Assembly (NCBI GenBank): GCA_036504215.1
Contig: DASXVO010000086.1
Coordinates: forward strand, 1 to 64,000
Direction of reading: 5' to 3'
From: Vicinamibacterales bacterium
GTDB lineage: Bacteria; Acidobacteriota; Vicinamibacteria; Vicinamibacterales; Fen-181
DNA length: 64,000 nt
This document shows positions 3,568 to 17,036 of the stretch, piece after piece (positions within the stretch are counted from its first letter, which is position 1; every line of letters starts with the position of its first letter). The notes beneath the pieces were generated by a model, which was given only the letters and a program-made list of their open reading frames with translations, made no database searches and was not told the DNA's origin. Made by a program: the position numbers and the translations under genes.

Positions 3568-4636
3568 TTATCGATACGTCTCGATGAAGTCCTGATACGC
3601 CGCTTCCGCGCGGTCCGCGGTTGCGATGTCCGAGAGAACCAGCACGCGGTGCCGGAACGTCACGCTCGCGCCAGGAGCGAGCGCGAAATTCAGCGTCTCC
3701 TTCCCGTCACTGAGCGCCTTCTGCCCGAGCGGGTTCGCCGCGAACAGCCCGTAGCCCCGCGCGTGCCAGTACGTTGGAAAGCCCGGATTCGACGGATGAT
3801 CGAGGATGGCGATGGTGACGGGCTCGTCGCCCACCCGTCCGCTCAGCGTGCACCACCGACCCCGGGTGCCCCAGACGGCCTCACCCTTCTTGCCCTCGCT
3901 GGTCAGGTACATGCCGCTGACGCCGGTGTTGTCCATCGCCTTGACGGTCGTCGCGCGCCCGCTGGCGTCTGTGAACACGTCGGGCTTGTTCGACGGCAGT
4001 TCGAGCGCCCGCGCCACGCGGAGGCCGATCACTCCCTCCTTGTTGTCGGCCAGGGCCACGCGGTCGGCGAGCGCCTCGAGCCGCGTGATGCGGTCCACGC
4101 TCCGCCACCCAGGCCCTCCTCGGAAAACGAACCGCGCGTGCTCGCGGATGACGACCTTGCCGTCGTCCATGACCCAGTCCATGTCGGTTTCGAGTTCACC
4201 CCTGTCCGACCCGCTGCGAACCGCCGTGACGGCCCGGTGCACGATGGTGCCCATCTTCGGCCGATCCTGCGGCTTGATGGCGTCCGAGTTGTTCCAGAAG
4301 TCGATGCCGTTCACGTCGCCATAGTTGAACCACAGGCCGACGTGGTGCGGATGATCCACGCGCTCGCCCGGACGCGGGTCGAGCGGGAAGCCGCGCGTCA
4401 CCAGGGTTCCCTTCGCGCTGCGGAGCGGGTAGAGCACCGGCTTCTTGAGGGTCACCGGGTAGATGTACGACGTGAACGGCTGGCCATCCACCAACACATC
4501 CACCCGCTGCGTCGCGTCGTCACGGACCAGGCGGACGCCTTTTTCGTCGGCGGCCGAGCCGGCCGCGGCCACGCACCAGGCCACGACGGCGAGCAGGACG
4601 CCGAGGCGCATGGCGGTCCTGAGCGTCGATGTCTGC

Positions 4637-4644
<8 letters not shown>
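3568..4644 (-). CDS. DUF6807 (PmoA-family) secreted protein
   Basis: A 358-residue protein with a hydrophobic N-terminal signal segment (residues about 12-31). The HPHH histidine cluster at 98-101, followed by VGLWFNYGDVNGIDFWN, is the hallmark of the DUF6807 family, formerly annotated as methane oxygenase PmoA. In Acidobacteria and Planctomycetes these proteins are usually found beside Gfo/Idh/MocA oxidoreductases in sugar loci; the biochemical activity is not established. A longer frame starts at 4683, but the ATG at 4644 overlaps the end of the upstream gene by 8 bp (ATGGCTGA), indicating translational coupling, so this start was chosen. The old methane link should not be taken literally. 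Confidence 0.85.
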
Positions 4645-5989
<1,345 letters not shown>

Positions 5990-6227: not shown

Positions 6228-8096
6228 TCAATGGCACGAGAACACGCGCGCCGACCGTGGCGCGAGGTTCAACGACAGTACGTTCCGACGGCCGAGCGAC
6301 TCACCCGTCCACAGATCGGTTACCTCCGAGTGGCGAGGCAGCCTCGAGGTGATCGTCTGCGGGAGGTCATACCAGTTCAGGAAACAGACATGACGCCTGT
6401 CCGGAAAACGAATGACGCCAATCTGTAGCGAGTCGTCTTCGAACTCCGCGGCAAGACCAGTCGGCGGCAGCAGCCTCCGCAGAATGGCCAGGCGATCCGC
6501 GGACAGCCTCGTCAGATCGTCGCCGGACAGGACCATGCCGCCGCTCGCGTACACGACCGCCGCGTGGAACAGGAACTCATTCTCCGGGAGGTCCCCGATG
6601 AGAACGATGGCGTCCGGGTCGTTCCACCACAGGCGACCGTTCTGCCAGTTGCGGCTGAGGTTTTGGCGCCCGGTGCTCGCGATGCGATCCCAGGACCGCT
6701 TGATGTCGTTGGAGCTGCGCGAGCCGTGGATCGTCCCGATCGAAGGCCAGATCGGGTGATTGCAGCCCAGGAGGAACGCGTCGCCGGCGCCGCGCGCGAT
6801 GGCCTGCATACCGCGGCGGTAGGCCTCCACCCGCGTGGCACGCGGGTCGTGGAACCGCCCGCCGTGCATGGCGCCCCAGAAATTCGCGTCGAGCTTGAAG
6901 TACGTGCAGCCCCAGGCGTTGCGCATCGTGCGGAAGAGGCGCTCGAAGTGCTGTTGCACCTCGGGGTGGGTGCCATCGAGCGCATACCAGGGGCCGCGAC
7001 GCCACCCCCCGAACGTGACACGGTCGGCCCGCAGCGGCTCGCCGGCGTCGTCGGCGATGAACCAGCCGGGGTGCTCCTGGAAGACGTGCGAGCCGGCCTC
7101 CGCCACGAACGGCGCAACCCAGATCGCGGGCTCGAAGCCACGCCCGCGGATGTGCTCGAGCACCGTCTGCACGCCTCCCTCGAACGCGGGGCCCGATTCG
7201 AGCCAGTCGCCCATGGCGCGCTGGTACCCGTCGTCGATCTGGATGTAGCGCAGGCCCGGGACCGTCTTGGCGATCGCATCGAGATTGTCGAGAACCTGTC
7301 GGGCGGTGACCTTCGGCCCGAAGCAGTACCAAGAACACCAGCCCGTCGGCGGTAGGGGGGCCGGCGGGCGCGGGTGGTTCCTGGCCAGCCGCGCCGCGAC
7401 ATCGTCGAGCAGCCTGGAGCGGTCGGGCCCGACCGCAAACATGAACTCCTCGAGCGGCCACGCCTCACCCGGCCGGATCTCGAGTCCCTCGGCCTCGAGT
7501 ACCACCTGGACCGACGACGCCCGCACCTGGAGCCGCCCGCTGAAGCGGGCGCACGAGGTGAACGCGAGCACGCTGGTCGGCTGGCCGGGCGGCGTGAGGG
7601 TGATGAGGCCGTAGAAGGCGCGGGCCCCCTCCGGCTGCGGAATCTTGTAGTGGCCGACGTCGGTGTACGAGCTCAAGCCGACCGGGTGCCCGAGCGTTCC
7701 GCCGGTCTGCGTGAGCATTTGGAACCCCTCGCCGTAGAAACGCGTGTCGGGCGGCACGGTCAGCGGCACGTCGAACAGCACGATCTCGTTCAGACGAACC
7801 GCGGCCCGCCCGCGGTGAACGGCGCGCGCGCTGCAGAACGGTCCGTTCCAGTTGCGGACGACCTCGATCTCCGCCGCCTGCGTGCCGTCGATCCCGATCG
7901 CAGAGGCTGGCGAACGGACCAATGCCAGCCGATCGAGGCCAGGCCGGCCGGCGCGACCGACGCTGGCGAGGCCGGCGAGCGCCGGAGATGCCAGCGCAAC
8001 CTGGAGGAACGCGCGGCGCGACGGCTTGGCAGGCCGGCCGACGGCCCCATCCGCGGGGTCTGCCGGTACGGCAACACGCGCTCGTTCACCGGTCAC
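6228..8096 (-). CDS. TAT-exported alpha-galactosidase-like glycoside hydrolase (GH36/GH27 type)
   Basis: A 622-residue TIM-barrel hydrolase with a twin-arginine signal (SRRAFLQVALASPALAG, RR at 27-28). GWCSWY (252-257) and YIQIDDGYQ (284-292) are the substrate-pocket motifs of melibiase-type enzymes. The nucleophile is predicted to be D403 in YFKLDANFW and the acid/base D464 in SRSSNDIKRSW. It should release terminal alpha-galactose from oligosaccharides or glycans in the periplasm. Its start overlaps the end of the upstream lacI-type gene by 11 bp, so the two are almost certainly co-transcribed. Plant raffinose-synthase-like proteins share the fold, so another alpha-glycoside specificity is possible. 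Confidence 0.85.
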   Translation of the reverse strand: MTGERARVAVPADPADGAVGRPAKPSRRAFLQVALASPALAGLASVGRAGRPGLDRLALVRSPASAIGIDGTQAAEIEVVRNWNGPFCSARAVHRGRAAVRLNEIVLFDVPLTVPPDTRFYGEGFQMLTQTGGTLGHPVGLSSYTDVGHYKIPQPEGARAFYGLITLTPPGQPTSVLAFTSCARFSGRLQVRASSVQVVLEAEGLEIRPGEAWPLEEFMFAVGPDRSRLLDDVAARLARNHPRPPAPLPPTGWCSWYCFGPKVTARQVLDNLDAIAKTVPGLRYIQIDDGYQRAMGDWLESGPAFEGGVQTVLEHIRGRGFEPAIWVAPFVAEAGSHVFQEHPGWFIADDAGEPLRADRVTFGGWRRGPWYALDGTHPEVQQHFERLFRTMRNAWGCTYFKLDANFWGAMHGGRFHDPRATRVEAYRRGMQAIARGAGDAFLLGCNHPIWPSIGTIHGSRSSNDIKRSWDRIASTGRQNLSRNWQNGRLWWNDPDAIVLIGDLPENEFLFHAAVVYASGGMVLSGDDLTRLSADRLAILRRLLPPTGLAAEFEDDSLQIGVIRFPDRRHVCFLNWYDLPQTITSRLPRHSEVTDLWTGESLGRRNVLSLNLAPRSARVFSCH

Positions 8097-9123
8097 AGCA
8101 CTGCCCCCCAGGCGATGCGCCGCACGACTCTCGCACGACGAGGCGAGGTTCCACGATGACCCGACGGGTCCGGGTCTGCGACGGGTCAGCCAGATGGGCG
8201 AGGAGCAACGTCGCCGCGTGCCGGCCGACCTCCTCCCTGGACCAGCTCACCGTCGTCAGCGGCACGCGCAGCAGGTCCCCCAGCTTGATGTCGCCGGCCC
8301 CGACCACGGCAACGTCTCTCGGAACCCGGAGCCCGGCCTCCCAGATGGCCTTCAAGGCACCAATCGCGACCGGGTCGTTCACGGCGAAGACAGCGTCGAT
8401 CCTCGGACGGACGCCCAGCAGGCGCTTCATCGCCCGGTAGCCATCGATCTCCATGAACCCCGTCCGCTCCAGCCACACCCCGGCCGGCCGGACGCCCCGC
8501 GCGCGCAAGGCGTCGCGCCAGCCGCGCAGCCTGCGCCTGGCGTGGGCGAGCGGGGGGCCGCCGATGTGCGCGATGGCCCGGTGGCCGAGATCGAGAAGGT
8601 GCGAGGTGGCGAGGCGGCCGACGCGGACGTCGTCGGTCAGCACCCGGTGGCAGGGGATCTCGGGGTGGTCATCGCGGTCGATCATGACGAGCCCCGTGCC
8701 CCCGCGGGTGAGCTGGAGGAGGACGTCGCCGTTGTTCGACGCGCGGGCGGCGGCGAGCACGACGCCGTCCACCTGGCGGCCGCGCAGCAACTGGAGGTCG
8801 GCGCGCTCCTTGCGGGCGTCCTCGTTCGAGTTGCACAGCAGCACGCCGTACCCGCTGGCGCTGGCGATCGGCTCGATCCCGGCGACGATTTCGGCGAAGA
8901 ACGAGTGCATCAGCTCCGGCACGACGACGCCGAGGGTGTGGGTGCGGCGCAGGGAGAGGTTGCGCGCGAGAACGTTACGCTGGTAGCCGAGTTCCTCGAC
9001 CTTGGCGAGAACCCGGGCGCGGGTACCGGGACCGATATCCCCACGGTTGTTCAGGACCTTCGAAACCGTCGTGACCGAGACCCCGAGCGCAATGGCGACC
9101 CGCTTCATCGTGGGAGGCGGCAT
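8086..9123 (-). CDS. LacI family transcriptional regulator
   Basis: A 345-residue repressor-type regulator. The helix-turn-helix and hinge occupy residues 6-60 (MKRVAIALGVSVTTVSKVLN), followed by a periplasmic-binding-protein-like effector domain that probably senses a sugar. It lies between, and is co-directional with, the alpha-galactosidase and is divergent from the fucosidase-FucP-FucI operon. The start is supported by AAAGGAG seven bases upstream. A perfect palindrome (9131-9144) typical of LacI-family operators overlaps this ribosome-binding site, which points to autoregulation as well as control of the divergent operon. L-fucose or an isomerisation product is the natural inducer candidate (inference). 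Confidence 0.93.
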   Translation of the reverse strand: MPPPTMKRVAIALGVSVTTVSKVLNNRGDIGPGTRARVLAKVEELGYQRNVLARNLSLRRTHTLGVVVPELMHSFFAEIVAGIEPIASASGYGVLLCNSNEDARKERADLQLLRGRQVDGVVLAAARASNNGDVLLQLTRGGTGLVMIDRDDHPEIPCHRVLTDDVRVGRLATSHLLDLGHRAIAHIGGPPLAHARRRLRGWRDALRARGVRPAGVWLERTGFMEIDGYRAMKRLLGVRPRIDAVFAVNDPVAIGALKAIWEAGLRVPRDVAVVGAGDIKLGDLLRVPLTTVSWSREEVGRHAATLLLAHLADPSQTRTRRVIVEPRLVVRESCGASPGGQCCDR

Positions 9124-9415: not shown

Positions 9416-10771
9416 ATGATCGACCGACCCTCGCGACGCAGCGCACTGAAACTCCTGGCGGCATCCGGACTCGGCACGGCCGTCGCCGCGCGAGCCGCCG
9501 ACGCTCACCTGGCGGCGCAGGCGCCGACGCCAGCCCCGCCACCCGACTCGTCCGCGCAGGCGGCCGACCGGGATCGCCGTCTGAAGTGGTGGCACGACGC
9601 GCGCTTCGGCATGTTCATCCACTGGGGGGCCTACAGCGTCATCGGCCGCCACGAGTGGGCGATGGAGAACGAGGCCATCCCCGTCGGCGAGTACGAGCAG
9701 GTCGCCAGGCGCTTCCAGCCGAAGCCGAATGCCGCACGCGAGTGGGCGAAGCTCGCCCGCCGCGCCGGCCAGAAGTACATGGTGATGACGACGAAGCACC
9801 ACGAGGGGTTCTGCCTGTTCGACACGAAGACGACCGGGTACTGCGCCTCGAAGATGGGCCCGGGCCGCGACCTGGTCCGCGAATACGTCGATGCGGTGCG
9901 GGCCGAGGGCCTCCGGGTCGGCTTGTACTACTCGCTGATGGACTGGCACCACCCCGACGGCGCGCGCTGCGCCACCGACGAGGCGGCCCGGCGGCGCTTG
10001 GTCGACTATATCCACACCCACATCCGCGAGTTGATGACCAACTACGGAAAGATCGACGTCCTGTGGTACGACGTCGCCTGGCCCCTCGACGCCGCCGGCT
10101 GGGAGTCTGAGCGGATGAACGAGATGGTCTTCAAGCTCCAGCCCGACATTCTCGTCAACAACCGCAACAAGCTGCGCGGCGACTTCACCACGCCCGAGCA
10201 GCGGATCCAGGCGGCCGGGCAGGGCTACGCCTGGGAATCCTGCATGACGATGAACGGAAGCTGGGGCTACCATGCCGCCGACGACGACTGGAAGACGCCC
10301 AAGCAGATCGTGCGGAACCTGATCACGTGCTGTCGCGATGGCGGCAACTACCTGCTCAACATCGGTCCTCGCGGCGACGGCTCGGTGCCCGAACCGTCCA
10401 TCCGGACACTCGAGGCCGTCGGGTCCTGGCTGGAGCGCAACGGGGAGTCGATCTATGCGAGCGATCGATGCCAGCCGAGCCGGTCGGCGTATGCGACCTA
10501 CAGCCGGAAGGGGAACACCCTCTTCATGCACGTCCACGCGTGGCCCGGCGACACCGCGGTGATGGCGGGGCTCCTCGTCCGGGTCAAGTCGGCCAGGCTG
10601 CTCGCCACCGGCCGGGCGGTCGCGTTCGAGCAGGACCCGTTGCGGGTCCGGTTCACCGGGCTCCCGGTGCAGGCGCCGGACACGCCGGTCACGACGATCG
10701 CGATCGAGTGCGACGCGGAGCCGAAGCAGGACCAATACGTGGTGCGGAACGGGCGCGAACGGGCGACGTAA
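9416..10771 (+). CDS. TAT-exported GH29 alpha-L-fucosidase
   Basis: A 451-residue enzyme that hydrolyses terminal alpha-L-fucose from glycans, with retention. The TAT signal is PSRRSALKLLAASGLG (RR at 7-8). The GH29 barrel shows WHDARFGMFIHWG (59-71), TTKHHEGF (125-132) and DVLWYDV (214-220), with D219 the predicted nucleophile. The frame is open further upstream to 9161, but the ATG at 9416 has GGAGGA six bases before it and gives an intact TAT signal, so it is chosen. It is the first gene of an operon with fucP and fucI, so released fucose is presumably transported and isomerised by the next two products. The acid/base glutamate of GH29 is poorly conserved and was not assigned. Confidence 0.93.
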   Translation: MIDRPSRRSALKLLAASGLGTAVAARAADAHLAAQAPTPAPPPDSSAQAADRDRRLKWWHDARFGMFIHWGAYSVIGRHEWAMENEAIPVGEYEQVARRFQPKPNAAREWAKLARRAGQKYMVMTTKHHEGFCLFDTKTTGYCASKMGPGRDLVREYVDAVRAEGLRVGLYYSLMDWHHPDGARCATDEAARRRLVDYIHTHIRELMTNYGKIDVLWYDVAWPLDAAGWESERMNEMVFKLQPDILVNNRNKLRGDFTTPEQRIQAAGQGYAWESCMTMNGSWGYHAADDDWKTPKQIVRNLITCCRDGGNYLLNIGPRGDGSVPEPSIRTLEAVGSWLERNGESIYASDRCQPSRSAYATYSRKGNTLFMHVHAWPGDTAVMAGLLVRVKSARLLATGRAVAFEQDPLRVRFTGLPVQAPDTPVTTIAIECDAEPKQDQYVVRNGRERAT

Positions 10772-10868
10772 CGCTGTTCCTGCGCGTCGACGGAGCCTGG
10801 GGCGCCGAGATCACGGTATCCGGCGGCGATTCGGCCTCCGGCGGCCGGCGGGGTCGACAGAGACAATC

Positions 10869-12251
10869 ATGAGCGACACGAGAAGAGGCTTGTTCATCAC
10901 CGGCGACGGAAGAAACCTCGCCTTGACGTTCGTCCTCGTCAGCTCCCTGTTCCTGCTCTGGGGGCTCTGCAACGGGATGATCGACGTGATGGACAAGCAC
11001 TTCCAGACGGAACTGCACCTCAGCAAGTCGCAGTCCGCGTGGGTCCAGTTCGCACACTATCTCGGGTACTTCCTGATGGCGATGCCCGCTGGCTGGCTGG
11101 CGACCCGGCTCGGGTACAAGGGCGGCATCATCAGCGGTCTCCTGATGGTGGCGCTCGGCGGGTTCTGGTTCCTCCCCGCCACGCACATCAACGCCCTCGC
11201 CCAGGCGGGCAGCGTCTCTCCGACGACCGCGTTTGTCGGCTACCTCGCGGGCGTCTGCGCCATCGCCGCGGGGCTCACGTTCCTGGAGACCGTCGCCAAC
11301 CCCTACACCACGGTGCTCGGACCGCCGCAATTCGCGGCCACGCGCATCAACCTCGCGCAATCCTGCAACGGGGTCGGGTGGATCTTCGGCCCCATCATCG
11401 GCGGGATGTTCTTCTACTCGACCGACGCGGCGGGCCGGAGCACCGGCAGCGAGACGCTGTACATCCCATATGTCGTCGTGGCGATCGTCGTGGTCGTCCT
11501 GGCGATCGTCTTCGCGTTCGCCGACATCCCGGACATCGAGGCCGAGGACGACTACCATCTCGACGACGGCGCGGCCGGCCCGGCGCACTCAATCTGGCGC
11601 CACCCGCACTTCGTGATGGCCGTGGCCGCCCAGTTCTTCTACGTGGCCGCGCAGGCCGGCATCTTCAGCTTCTTCATCAACTACATGACGGCCGAAGTGC
11701 CGCCCATTCCCGCTTCCTGGCGCTCGGACCTCCTGCGGAGCTGGTTCGAGTCGGGCCAGGCAGGGGCCCTCCGTCTCAGCGACCGGGGCGCGGCCAACCT
11801 GGCCTCGATCGGCTTCGTGTGTTTCCTCGTCGGCCGGTTCACCGGCGCGGGCCTGTTGAAGAAGTTCGCCGCCCACAGGGTACTCGCGCTCTACGGTGTC
11901 CTGAACGTCGTCGCCTGCTTTCTGGTGTTCCTGAAGCTCGGCTGGCTGTCGGTGGCGTGCGTGTTCGCCAGCTACTTCTTCATGTCGATCATGTTCCCGA
12001 CGATCTTCGCGCTCGGGATCTTCGGCCTTGGCGCCCGTGCCAAGAAGGCCTCCGCCTACATCGTCATGGCGATCATGGGCGGCGCCATCCTGCCGAAGTT
12101 GATGGGGCACGTGGCCGACCAGTACGACATGTCGCGCGGCTTCATCGTGCCGATGGTGTGCTTCGCCTTCGTGGCGTTCTACGGGCACTGGTGGCCGAAG
12201 GTCAGCGGCGTGGAGTCGATGACGGCGCCGAAGCCAGACGCCGCCCGATGA
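10869..12251 (+). CDS. fucP: L-fucose:H+ symporter FucP (major facilitator superfamily)
   Basis: A 460-residue inner-membrane transporter with about twelve hydrophobic segments. The first helix region contains LLWGLCNGMIDVMDKHFQ, a signature of the FucP branch of sugar:proton symporters, and the fifth region LTFLETVANPYTTVLGPP matches the same family. A charged cytoplasmic loop of about 25 residues (IEAEDDYHLDDG) separates the two halves. Placed between the fucosidase and fucose isomerase genes, it most likely imports L-fucose. Related proteins carry glucose, galactose or N-acetylglucosamine, but the operon context favours fucose. Confidence 0.92.
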   Translation: MSDTRRGLFITGDGRNLALTFVLVSSLFLLWGLCNGMIDVMDKHFQTELHLSKSQSAWVQFAHYLGYFLMAMPAGWLATRLGYKGGIISGLLMVALGGFWFLPATHINALAQAGSVSPTTAFVGYLAGVCAIAAGLTFLETVANPYTTVLGPPQFAATRINLAQSCNGVGWIFGPIIGGMFFYSTDAAGRSTGSETLYIPYVVVAIVVVVLAIVFAFADIPDIEAEDDYHLDDGAAGPAHSIWRHPHFVMAVAAQFFYVAAQAGIFSFFINYMTAEVPPIPASWRSDLLRSWFESGQAGALRLSDRGAANLASIGFVCFLVGRFTGAGLLKKFAAHRVLALYGVLNVVACFLVFLKLGWLSVACVFASYFFMSIMFPTIFALGIFGLGARAKKASAYIVMAIMGGAILPKLMGHVADQYDMSRGFIVPMVCFAFVAFYGHWWPKVSGVESMTAPKPDAAR

Positions 12252-12326
12252 ATGCGGCGCGCGCCGCACGCCTCAGCCGGCGCCCGCGTCGTGCCCGGGC
12301 GTCGGAATTTCAGGAGGGTGTCAGTC

Positions 12327-14141
12327 ATGGGTGCCAATTTCCCGCTTCCCGAGGCCATCGCGAACACGCGCGCTACCGCCCGCCCGCCGAAGATCGGCAT
12401 CCGTCCGGTCATCGACGGGCGCCGCAGGGGCGTACGCGAGTCGCTGGAACACCAGGTCATGGCGATGGCCCGCTCCGCCGCAACGCTCTACGAGAGAGAC
12501 CTCCGGCATCCCGACGGGCGGGCGGTCGAGTGCGTGGTCGCGGACACGTGCATCGGCGGCGTGGCCGAGGCATCGGCGTGCGCGGAGCAGTTCGCACGCG
12601 CGGGCGTTGGCGTCAGCCTGACCGTCACGCCGTGCTGGTGCTACGGCACCGAGGTGATGGATGCCGATCCGGTGACGCCGAAGGGCGTGTGGGGATTCAA
12701 CGGCACGGAGCGGCCAGGCGCGGTCTACCTGGCGGCCGCGCTCGCGGGCTACGCGCAGAAGGGACTCCCGGCGTTCGGCATCTACGGGCGCGACGTCCAG
12801 GACAAGGACGACACGACGATTCCCGAGGATGCCCGGCGCAAGCTGTTGCTGTTCGCGCGCGCGGGCCTCGCCGTGGCGCGGATGCGGGGACAGTCGTACC
12901 TGAGCATCGGCGGCACGAGCATGGGCATCGCGGGCAGCATCGTGGACCAGGACTTCCTTCAGAGCTACCTCGGGATGCGAACCGAGGCGGTTGACATGTC
13001 CGAAATCGTACGCCGGATGGAGGAGGGCATCTTCGACCGCGCCGAGTTCGACGCGGCGCTGGCCTGGGTGAAGGCGCACTGCCGCGAGGGTGCCGACGCC
13101 AATCCAGCGTCGAAGCAGGCCAGCCGGGCACGCAAGGACGCGGAGTGGGAGACGTGCGTCCAGTGCGCGATAATCGTGCGCGACCTGATGGTCGGGAACC
13201 CCCGCCTGCGCGAGGCGGGATGGGACGAGGAATCGCTCGGCCATCACGCACTGGTGGCCGGATTCCAGGGGCAGCGGGCCTGGACCGATCACTGGCCGAA
13301 CGGCGATTTCCTCGAGTCGATGCTCAACTCCAGCTTCGACTGGACCGGGATCCGTCAGCCGTTCATCGTCGCGACCGAGAACGACTCGCTCAACGGCGTG
13401 GCGATGCTGTTCGGTCACCTCCTCACGGCGACGGCCAGCCTCTTCGCCGACGTGCGGACCTTCTGGAGCCCGGCGGCGGTCAGGCGGGTCACCGGATCCG
13501 AGTTGGCCGGCAGGGCGGCAGCGGGCGTCATCCACCTGCTCAACTCCGGTGCCGCGGCGCTCGACGCCAGCGGACGCCTCGCGCGAGGGGGCCAGCCGTG
13601 CATGAAGCCGTTCTGGGAGATCACCGAGGAGGAAGCCGACGCCTGCCTGCGCGCCACCACGTGGTGCCCCGCCGTGCGCGACTACTTCCGTGGAGGCGGC
13701 TATTCGAGCCGGTTCGTCACCTGCGGCGAGTGGCCCCTGACGATGATTCGGGTGAACATGGTGAAGGGCCTCGGCCCGGTGCTCCAGTTGGCCGAGGGCT
13801 GGACCGTCGATCTCCCCGACCAGGTCCATGCGGCCCTCGACGCGCGCACCGACCCCACCTGGCCGACCACGTGGTTCGCGCCGAAACTGACCGGCAGCGG
13901 GGCCTTCACCGACGCGTACAGCGTGATGGCCAACTGGGGGGCCAACCACGCGGCGGCCACCTACGGGCACATCGGCGATCAGGTGCTCGCCCTGGCGTCG
14001 ATGCTCCGCATACCGGTCAACATGCACAACGTCGAAGCCGGTCGAATCTTCAGGCCGGCCTCGTGGAGTGCCTTCGGCACCAGCGATCCCGAGGGGGCGG
14101 ACTACCGCGCCTGCGCCGCCTACGGACCGCTGTACGCCTGA
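12327..14141 (+). CDS. fucI: L-fucose isomerase
   Basis: A 604-residue cytoplasmic aldose-ketose isomerase converting L-fucose to L-fuculose; E. coli FucI has 591. Predicted metal ligands are E351 (ATENDS), D375 (LFADVRTF) and H541 (WGANHAAA), corresponding in order to the three Mn ligands of characterised enzymes. The frame extends upstream to 12252, but the ATG at 12327 is preceded by AGGAGGG with 8-base spacing and matches the family N-terminus. The family also acts on D-arabinose. No fuculokinase or fuculose-1-phosphate aldolase lies nearby, so the downstream steps must be encoded elsewhere or differ. Confidence 0.95.
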
Positions 14142-14154
14142 CGCGGGAGAAGGT

Positions 14155-16176
14155 ATGTTCATCCTCCGAACGTTCGCGTGCGTGGCGCTCGCCGCCTTCC
14201 CCGTTCTCGCCCAGCCCGCCCGGCCGACCCCGCCGACCGGGGCGCTGGCGGACTACCATGTCCACGTGAAGGGCGGCCTCACGCTCGACGACGCCCTCAG
14301 CCGATCGAGCCAGACCGGCATCCGCTACGGCATCGTCATCAACGGCGGCCTGGGTTTCCCGGTGAGCAGCGACGAGGGGCTCGAGGCCTTTCTTCGCGAG
14401 ATGCGCGGAAAGCCGGCCTTCGTGGCGTTCCAGGCCGAGGGCCGCGAATGGGTGCGCCTCTTCTCCAGGCGGACGCTCGAGAAATTCGACTACGTCTTCA
14501 CGGACGCGATGACGTGGACCGACGACAGCGGCAGGCGCATGCGGCTGTGGATCGAGGACGAAGTCGGCGCCATCGCCGACCCGCAGGCGTTCATGGATAT
14601 GCTCGTCAAGCGCGCCACGGGGATCTTCGACAACGAGCCGATCGATCTCTACGTCAACCCGACGTTCCTGCCGAAGCGGATCGCGGCCGGCTATGACTCG
14701 CTCTGGACACCGGCGCGCATGCAGCGAATCGTCGACCGCCTGGCCGCGAACGGCATCGGGATGGAGATCAACAACCGATACCGCATCCCGAGCACCGCCT
14801 TCATCCGTCTGGCGAAAAGATCCGGCGTCAAGTTCGCGTGCGGCACCAACAACACCGGGCCGGACGACCTGGGCCGCAACGAGTACTGCGCCGAGATGAT
14901 CCGGCAGTGTGACTTGCGCGAAGCGGACTTCTGGGTCCCGCCCGCCGACGGCAGGAAGGCGGTCCAGCGCCGGCCCTTCCCCCGTGGAGGCGACGGGCTG
15001 ACGCCCGCGCGGGTGGACGCACTGCGCGCCGAGATCCGCGCCCACTTCTTCGTGCCGGACCCGCTGCCGGCGCTCGATGCGCGCACTCACCGTCGGTTCG
15101 ATCCGGCGCCAGGTGTCACCGCAGAGGCTGTGAGCTATGCCACCGAGTTCGGCACGCGCGTGCCCGCCATCCTCTATCTCCCGACGCCGCTGCCCAGGGG
15201 AAGAATCCCCGCCTTCATCGTCGTCAACGGGCACGGCGGCGACAAGCACTCGTGGTACTCCTACTACACCGGCATCACGTTCGCGCGCGGCGGCGCGGCG
15301 GTACTCACTTACGATCAGGCCGGCGAGGCGGAGCGAAGCGCGCACCGCGCGTCGGGTACGCGGGACCACGATCGGATCGAGGGCGACCAGGTCCTGGCGC
15401 GCCGGCTATGCGGCCTGATGCTCACCGACGTCATGCAGGCCGTCTCGTACCTGTCGACGCGCACCGAGGTCGACCCGGCCCGGATTGGCGCCGGCGGGTA
15501 CTCACTCGGGTCCTTCGTGCTCGCGCTGGCCGGGGCGGTGGAGCCGCGGCTCCGCGCCTGCGTGATGGTCGGGGGCGGCAACCTCGACGGCCGTGGCGGT
15601 TACTGGGACAAGTCGAAGCCGATGTGCCAGGGACTGCCCTACCAGTCGCTCGGATTTCTCGGCGACCGGGCGGCGGTGATCTACGCGCTGCACGCGGCGC
15701 GGGGCCCGGCGCTCGTCTGGAACGGCCGCGCCGACTCGGTCGTGAACGTGCCGGCAACGCTGGAGCCGTTCTTCGACGATCTGCGATCGCGGGTCGTGGC
15801 GCTGCGCGGGACGACCGATGGCGTCTTCGAGTTCGGCTTCGTGCCGGACGGCAGCCATCGACCCTATTTCCTGACGCGCCCGGTAGTGCTGTGGCTGGGG
15901 CTGCGGCTTGGCTTTCCGAATTGGACCGACGCCTCGATTCGCTTGATGCCCGAGACGAAGATCGGCGCGTGGGTGCGGGCGACCGGCGTGGCGGTCGACA
16001 TGCAGTACGCGGCGGACGAGCGCGAGGGCGGGACGCTCGCCGTCGGCGACGGCGTCCCGGGCTACAGATGGGAAGACCTGTGCGTGTACACCCCGACCGA
16101 GTGGGAGCAGGCCAAGCGCCCGCTCGTTCTCGACACCTGGGTGGAGGCGGCGAGAGCAGCGGGCACCGGGCGCTAG
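14155..16176 (+). CDS. Secreted fusion: PHP-like metal-dependent domain plus alpha/beta hydrolase
   Basis: A 673-residue protein with a signal peptide (cleavage near VLAQ, residue 20). Residues about 30-265 look like a PHP (polymerase and histidinol phosphatase) domain: DYHVH (33-37) supplies the first metal ligands and EINN (204-207) a later conserved acid. Residues about 320-600 form an alpha/beta hydrolase, with NGHGGDKHSWY (358-368) as oxyanion region, GGYSLGS (448-454, nucleophile S450), D527 and H568 as the likely triad. The start is supported by GGAGAAGG before ATG 14155. It is the last gene of the fucose operon. A deacetylase or esterase of acylated sugars is a reasonable guess for the second domain; the PHP domain substrate is unknown. 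The two domains are normally separate genes. Confidence 0.8.
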   Translation: MFILRTFACVALAAFPVLAQPARPTPPTGALADYHVHVKGGLTLDDALSRSSQTGIRYGIVINGGLGFPVSSDEGLEAFLREMRGKPAFVAFQAEGREWVRLFSRRTLEKFDYVFTDAMTWTDDSGRRMRLWIEDEVGAIADPQAFMDMLVKRATGIFDNEPIDLYVNPTFLPKRIAAGYDSLWTPARMQRIVDRLAANGIGMEINNRYRIPSTAFIRLAKRSGVKFACGTNNTGPDDLGRNEYCAEMIRQCDLREADFWVPPADGRKAVQRRPFPRGGDGLTPARVDALRAEIRAHFFVPDPLPALDARTHRRFDPAPGVTAEAVSYATEFGTRVPAILYLPTPLPRGRIPAFIVVNGHGGDKHSWYSYYTGITFARGGAAVLTYDQAGEAERSAHRASGTRDHDRIEGDQVLARRLCGLMLTDVMQAVSYLSTRTEVDPARIGAGGYSLGSFVLALAGAVEPRLRACVMVGGGNLDGRGGYWDKSKPMCQGLPYQSLGFLGDRAAVIYALHAARGPALVWNGRADSVVNVPATLEPFFDDLRSRVVALRGTTDGVFEFGFVPDGSHRPYFLTRPVVLWLGLRLGFPNWTDASIRLMPETKIGAWVRATGVAVDMQYAADEREGGTLAVGDGVPGYRWEDLCVYTPTEWEQAKRPLVLDTWVEAARAAGTGR

Positions 16177-17036
16177 CGAACCCGACAGGCGAGTGCGTTC
16201 CTCAGCATCGCGAGCGATTCGGGCGCCTGCGCGGCGAAATCCGTCGTGGACGCCTCGATGCTGAGACGCCCGGCGTAGCCGATCTTGCACAGATTCCCGA
16301 AGAATCCCGCGTAGTTCGTCTCATCCCGGCTCGACGGGTACACGCGCCCGTTCGGGTTGGCCAGGTGGGTGTGAACGATTTGCTTTCCAGCCTCGAGCAG
16401 CACGGCCGGGCTCTCCCCCTCCTCGGCCAGGTGGTAGTAGTCCACGAGGAGCCTGATCTCGGGGCGATCGACCGCGTTGACGAGCGCCAAGCCTTCGCGC
16501 GCGGTGTTGAGGATGTTCGTCTCCTGGTGACGGAGCGGCTCGATCGCGATGGTGATGCCGCGTTCCCGGGCCAGGGGGGCGATGCGTCGGCAGAAGTCCA
16601 CGAGCTGGCCCACAGCCTCCTGCCGCGAGAACCCATCGGGCACGCGCCGCGCCCCGCCGCTGCCCAGGACGACCACCGACACGCCGAGCGTCTTGAGCCG
16701 GCCCAGGCACGCGCCGACGTACTCCTCCTGACGGCGCTTGTCGACATCGGGCCCGACAAGCTTGATGGCCGCCGGGATGAAGTTGTTGGCGGCGGCCACC
16801 GGGATGCGGAGGCCGGCGATGCGCGCGGCAAGCTGCCGGAACTCGTCGTCGGTCAGCGCGGCCACCTTCGACGCGGCGATCTCCACGTAGTCGAAGCCGG
16901 CCGCCTGGGCCGCCTCGAATCTGTCGGCGTCGAGGCAGACGCCGACCTGCACTCTCGACGGACCCTGCCCGAACGCCGTGCACGCCCAACACAACATCAC
17001 TGCGACCGCATGTTGGAGTTTCATGAGGAGCAGCAT
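16173..17036 (-). CDS. Secreted sugar-phosphate isomerase/epimerase-like TIM barrel (AP endonuclease 2 family)
   Basis: A 287-residue protein with an N-terminal signal peptide (MKLQHAVAVMLCWACTAFGQ) followed by a xylose-isomerase-like TIM barrel. Characteristic pieces are the VGVCLDADRFEAAQAAGFDYVEI start, IAIEPLRHQETN (metal-ligand glutamate), LLVDYYHLAEEG and VHTHLANPNGR. Family members isomerise or epimerise keto-sugars with a divalent metal. An exported member is typical of Acidobacteria and Planctomycetes glycan loci. The end overlaps the stop of the convergent fusion gene by 4 bp. The start could also be the second ATG at 17024; neither has a strong ribosome-binding site. Confidence 0.8.
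   Translation of the reverse strand: MLLLMKLQHAVAVMLCWACTAFGQGPSRVQVGVCLDADRFEAAQAAGFDYVEIAASKVAALTDDEFRQLAARIAGLRIPVAAANNFIPAAIKLVGPDVDKRRQEEYVGACLGRLKTLGVSVVVLGSGGARRVPDGFSRQEAVGQLVDFCRRIAPLARERGITIAIEPLRHQETNILNTAREGLALVNAVDRPEIRLLVDYYHLAEEGESPAVLLEAGKQIVHTHLANPNGRVYPSSRDETNYAGFFGNLCKIGYAGRLSIEASTTDFAAQAPESLAMLRNALACRVR

Follow-up and report, generated by a model that had tools for sequence, protein, structure and literature searches.

A gene fusion that looks genuine, found so far in this one genome, is located at 14155-16176 (+) of the window, i.e. the whole 64,000-nucleotide stretch of Vicinamibacterales DNA analysed here. Its most likely product is a secreted enzyme that hydrolyses sugar esters and is fused to a PHP-fold domain repurposed within glycan metabolism. 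As a whole, we give a probability of about 0.6 to the explanation that this single-genome fusion yields a secreted protein in which a BT1017-like esterase and a repurposed PHP domain aid the GH29 fucosidase, FucP and FucI. It represents a clear case in which a gene of the lineage itself was joined to an esterase of foreign affinity, a decayed standalone relative being still visible. The PHP-like family is more interesting than the fused gene itself.

The fused open reading frame starts 13 nt after FucI. The fucosidase, FucP and FucI genes that precede it, in this order, are co-directional and separated by short gaps, as in an L-fucose catabolic operon. The sequence-only reading had proposed this context, and the identification of the three genes bore it out. 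The region is organised as follows.

8086-9123 (-): divergent LacI-family regulator.
9422-10771 (+): GH29 alpha-L-fucosidase, with which the operon begins (PF01120, E 4e-86).
10869-12251 (+): FucP-like L-fucose/H+ symporter (TIGR00885, 267.8 bits, slightly below the cut-off of 280.4).
12327-14141 (+): L-fucose isomerase FucI (above equivalog cut-offs).
14155-16176 (+): fused gene for a 673-aa protein, a PHP-like domain followed by a CE19-like esterase (open reading frame, models of both halves).
16173-17036 (-): convergent xylose-isomerase-like TIM barrel, apparently exported (nearest model D-psicose 3-epimerase, below its cut-off).

Neither a fuculokinase nor an aldolase gene was found within the fucose operon (9422-14141), and promoter and terminator scans gave no signal above chance. 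FGGY kinase and class II aldolase genes occur elsewhere in the genome (G000:C86:140214-140948, C33 and C59). Beside the operon, a second, leftward and divergent cluster comprises genes for an oxidoreductase, a DUF6807 protein and an outer-membrane receptor; the Tat-signal oxidoreductase lies at 4640-5989 (-) of the window and is followed by the DUF6807 protein at 3571-4683 (-). The best model for the oxidoreductase was a glycoside 3-dehydrogenase of the BT_2158 type (E 4e-22, below the curated cut-off), and the oxidoreductase/DUF6807 pair is possibly part of an exported 3-keto-glycoside pathway.

Within the fused gene, the following elements were assigned; the protein length, DYHVH at 33-37, EINN at 204-207 and S450, D527 and H568 were all found where the sequence-only reading had put them.

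14155-14214 (+): signal-peptide-like N terminus, residues 1-20, MFILRTFACVALAAFPVLAQ (by inspection; standalone PHP homologues have one too).
14245-14949 (+): PHP-fold domain, about residues 31-265 (model, structural matches).
14251-14265 (+): D33-Y-H35-V-H37, the sole canonical metal motif kept (H35 in 22/23 and H37 in 23/23 sequences).
14431-14433 (+): Q93 in place of the canonical Glu ligand, invariant in 23/23 (placed by strand matching, probable).
14503-14505 (+): D117, acidic residue of the fourth strand, invariant in 23/23 (alignment).
14656-14658 (+): N168 in place of a canonical His ligand, invariant in 23/23 (probable, by strand matching; the profile alignment is gapped just behind N168).
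14848-14850 (+): N232 where the Asp ligand of the canonical SDAH motif would be, invariant in 23/23 (profile comparison and alignment).
14950-15003 (+): junction or linker, residues 266-283 (pLDDT below 50 for 272-278), from the PHP C-terminal tail to the mature esterase N terminus.
15004-16173 (+): CE19-like alpha/beta-hydrolase esterase domain, residues 284-673 (alignment, profile and structural matches).
15502-15504 (+): S450, nucleophile (aligned with the catalytic Ser282 motif of BT1017, PMC7939467).
15733-15735 (+): D527, triad (aligned with Asp352 of BT1017).
15856-15858 (+): H568, triad (invariant).

The C-terminal half had been read as an alpha/beta hydrolase, and structure prediction agreed with this. 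Its Pfam matches were of the Peptidase_S9/AXE1 type. The best structural match of the model, with Z 29.8 over 331 residues, was BT1017 (6GOC), the enzyme on which a family of pectin methylesterases (CAZy family CE19) was founded; the next match reached 25.4, putative acetyl xylan esterases scored about 25 and glucuronoyl esterases about 22. The predicted fold is thus an alpha/beta hydrolase closest to BT1017, and a profile match to 6goc was also obtained (7e-11). S450, D527 and H568 were invariant in all 21 esterase sequences, as for a Ser/Asp/His triad. BT1017 is a proven pectin methylesterase whose triad, Ser282/Asp352/His388, was shown by mutation (PMC7939467). Once the chain-numbering offset was allowed for, its Ser282 and Asp352 aligned with S450 and D527. 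The zinc ligands His201 and His244 of BT1017 matched the invariant H360 and H405; of the two others, Cys315 and Cys317, the former is replaced by K488 and one Cys (C491) is off by one residue.

The genes of the esterase relatives adjoin pectinesterase, GH28, GH95, GH29 and sulfatase genes, a GH29 gene being near just one of them (L062). Given the closeness of the domain to BT1017 and the position of its relatives next to genes acting on pectin or fucose, an acylated-sugar substrate is plausible, and the C-terminal half may act on esters of pectic or fucosylated oligosaccharides. Proteins of about 866 aa in which a glucuronoyl esterase (PF22244) is fused to this esterase were found in two genomes, at L063:8669-11266 (-) and L069:8037-10631 (+); both genes adjoin an MGH1-like glycosidase gene.

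For the N-terminal half, an AlphaFold2 model based on an alignment of 15 sequences was obtained with a pLDDT of 88.1. This predicted structure has the distorted seven-stranded barrel of PHP proteins, as had been anticipated: the VIA Z scores were 21.8 with histidinol-phosphate phosphatase (2yxo), 20.4 with PolX (3au2) and 18.5 with YcdX (1m65). PHP structures ranged from 17.6 to 21.8, whereas RNase P Rpp30-type proteins gave about 13 and unrelated entries remained below 11. The link to the superfamily is weak by sequence, with no Pfam PHP match at E 1; the PRK08392 model matched 15 of 15 PHP-like members, at best with about 5e-8, far under the cut-off of the model.

The PHP-type metal site announced from the sequence was recovered in part only. 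The first-motif HxH of the superfamily is kept, but EINN 204-207 is the core motif of the sixth strand, also present in PolX and YcdX, and is no metal ligand. The full nine-ligand His/Asp/Glu site of catalytic PHP members is absent from this half, seven of the nine canonical positions being substituted or deleted and the first HxH alone being retained. When profiles were compared with those of a PolX of the same order, Asp225 of PolX aligned with N232 and His227 with T234. The ligands not set in this way were placed by one-to-one matching of the predicted strands, which would put G64 at the His of TDH, Q93 at the Glu, M119 at the fourth-strand His and N168 at the fifth-strand His. Q93, D117, N168, N232, E204 and W99 were identical in 23 of 23 family sequences. 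Because the substituted positions are themselves conserved, the altered pocket looks like a changed site under selection rather than the product of random decay. Canonical ligands replaced by invariant residues therefore indicate that the N-terminal half is no ordinary PHP phosphoesterase; it is probably a repurposed sugar-acting or sugar-binding domain.

The 23 aligned PHP-like sequences came from Acidobacteria and Verrucomicrobia, and the family, which has no Pfam model, spans at least three phyla. In 13 of the 23 members a 3-keto-disaccharide hydrolase domain, PF06439 (DUF1080), absent from the 673-aa window protein, is fused in front of the PHP-like domain; four others (L010, L011, L012, L041) stand alone with no partner domain. 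PF06439 proteins include the 3-ketotrehalose hydrolase BT2157 and a putative 3'-ketolactose hydrolase (PMC9007349). From annotation and sequence inspected by eye, PF06439 also apparently precedes the PHP-like domain in two Parabacteroides distasonis proteins. These (L108:11314-12696 and L109:9308-10696) are annotated as a family 16 glycoside hydrolase and a DUF1080 protein, the PHP-like domain having been overlooked, and one of the two genes adjoins a sugar phosphate isomerase/epimerase gene. Xylose-isomerase-like TIM-barrel proteins adjoin the PHP-like gene in the window, in L010 and in Parabacteroides; as a single conserved partner they were rejected, not being close homologues of one another. 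In genome G041, the PHP-like gene (L007:7001-7933 / L012:882-1814) contains a near-exact repeat of about 52 bp, with PPKPFTEPLMAKAD units, behind its signal-like N terminus.

The pairing with PF06439 and, near the window protein, the genes resembling a glycoside 3-dehydrogenase and an epimerase-type TIM barrel point, short of proof, to exported sugar chemistry, and by association the PHP half may be tied to 3-keto-glycosides. Tentatively, and at somewhat less than even odds, this half might belong to a PHP-superfamily clade that is exported and as yet unnamed, and whose tri-metal phosphoesterase site would have been rebuilt with amides and one HxH for a sugar-directed reaction. It would be a catalytic module that moves between partners: 3-keto-disaccharide hydrolase domains in many bacteria and, so far here alone, a glycan esterase. 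The rebuilt site and this habitual pairing suggest an unexplored sugar chemistry.

That the two domains are normally separate genes, as had been stated, was supported by the relatives, in which the halves are encoded separately and most of the proteins begin with their own signal-like sequence. The same fusion was not found in 162 genomes of the order, 396 genomes of the phylum, 289 genomes of the phylum of the Verrucomicrobia relative or plasmid records, and it was absent from the eight relatives found in genome contigs by a non-exhaustive scan with six exact peptide patterns. Being confined to one genome so far, the fusion offers no conservation record by which to gauge its adaptive value. 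The two halves have discordant phylogenies, each placement being supported at 100/99: the PHP half clusters with standalone homologues from the host's own order, and the esterase half pairs with a sequence from a Verrucomicrobia MAG (71% identity). Codon use marks neither half as foreign. An internal start just upstream of the esterase half may exist. In the same genome, a decayed standalone PHP-like gene (G000:C54:199473-199686; L042:1393-1606; L081, about 9480-9690) keeps the gene start and pieces of 48 bp and 93 bp, most of its middle being deleted. No clear synteny was seen around this remnant, and it was rejected as the parent of the fused copy: its three pieces share 78-90% identity with a congener's gene versus 76-79% with the fused copy.

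An assembly artefact joining two separate genes might be suspected from a fusion seen in one genome only, and from the lack of a close homologue of the esterase half in the 162 genomes of the order. This is, in our opinion, the least probable explanation and a highly improbable one. The join is in frame; it retains the PHP C-terminal tail (..DGRKAVQRRPFPR) and runs straight into the mature esterase start, the esterase signal peptide being missing with no room for one. Furthermore, GC3 is similar on the two sides of the junction (0.915 and 0.887), and the gene immediately follows fucI within a contig of 165 kb. Very unlikely too is the proposal of the sequence-only reading that the protein is bifunctional, combining a metal-dependent PHP phosphatase with an esterase, its substrate being a phosphorylated or acylated fucoside. 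The PHP fold, the kept HxH and the fucose operon speak for it, and the part of it that holds two domains, a triad, a secreted character and a plausible acylated sugar agrees with our results. The phosphorylated fucoside found no support, because seven of the nine PHP metal positions are lost and secreted proteins rarely meet sugar phosphates. The neighbourhoods of the relatives also speak against it: across 28 large loci that were searched, neither fucI nor fucP was found next to a relative of the PHP half or of the esterase half.

The main rival, which we judge rather improbable, assigns a purely structural role to a catalytically dead PHP half, as a scaffold or sugar-binding module positioning the esterase. 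Most metal ligands are indeed gone, and E. coli Pol III offers a published example of a PHP domain with lost ligands and a structural role (PMC3666897). However, the pocket substitutions are invariant in 23 sequences of Acidobacteria and Verrucomicrobia, including the four partnerless proteins, a pattern that favours a site under selection. A sharper form of the preferred explanation makes the PHP half an active isomerase, lyase or hydrolase of oxidised sugars in an exported 3-keto-glycoside pathway. The frequent PF06439 partner, the TIM-barrel neighbours and the glycoside 3-dehydrogenase-like gene of the divergent cluster are consistent with it, but these are associations, the window protein has no PF06439 and the adjoining TIM barrels are not closely homologous; we find it doubtful, albeit a little less so than the structural role.

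According to the preferred explanation, a repurposed PHP domain joined to a BT1017-like esterase, the fused gene would give one two-domain protein, presumably secreted. Its C-terminal half, as a serine carbohydrate esterase of the CE19-like kind, would probably take a methyl or acetyl ester off a pectic or fucosylated oligosaccharide. Ester removal might then let exo-glycosidases proceed, for example the GH29 fucosidase of the operon, and the freed fucose would be taken in via FucP and FucI. The N-terminal half would act on or bind a sugar, the usual partner in its family being a 3-keto-disaccharide hydrolase domain. The case for a fucose-specific role is weak, since no searched relative lies beside fucI or fucP and GH29 is near L062 alone.

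Compared with known systems, the C-terminal half resembles BT1017 in fold across the whole catalytic module and in the aligned Ser and Asp of the triad, and its H360 and H405 correspond to the oxyanion/zinc and zinc histidines of that enzyme. It differs by an identity of about 18%, by the lost and displaced cysteines, and by a PHP domain in front and no DUF3826; esterase activity is proven for BT1017 and predicted here. The glucuronoyl esterase-esterase fusions of the same phylum (L063, L069) share the C-terminal esterase family, but their N-terminal partner is a glucuronoyl esterase instead of a PHP fold. With PHP phosphoesterases (histidinol-phosphate phosphatase, YcdX, PolX), the N-terminal half has in common the fold (Z 18-22), the HxH and the EIN core strand; unlike them, it is presumably exported, lacks a Pfam PHP match and has most of its metal positions replaced or deleted. 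The closest parallel in family is provided by the DUF1080-PHP proteins of Acidobacteria, Verrucomicrobia and Parabacteroides, with about 38-59% identity and the invariant residues in common; these carry PF06439 in front of the PHP-like domain, whereas the window protein carries an esterase behind it instead.
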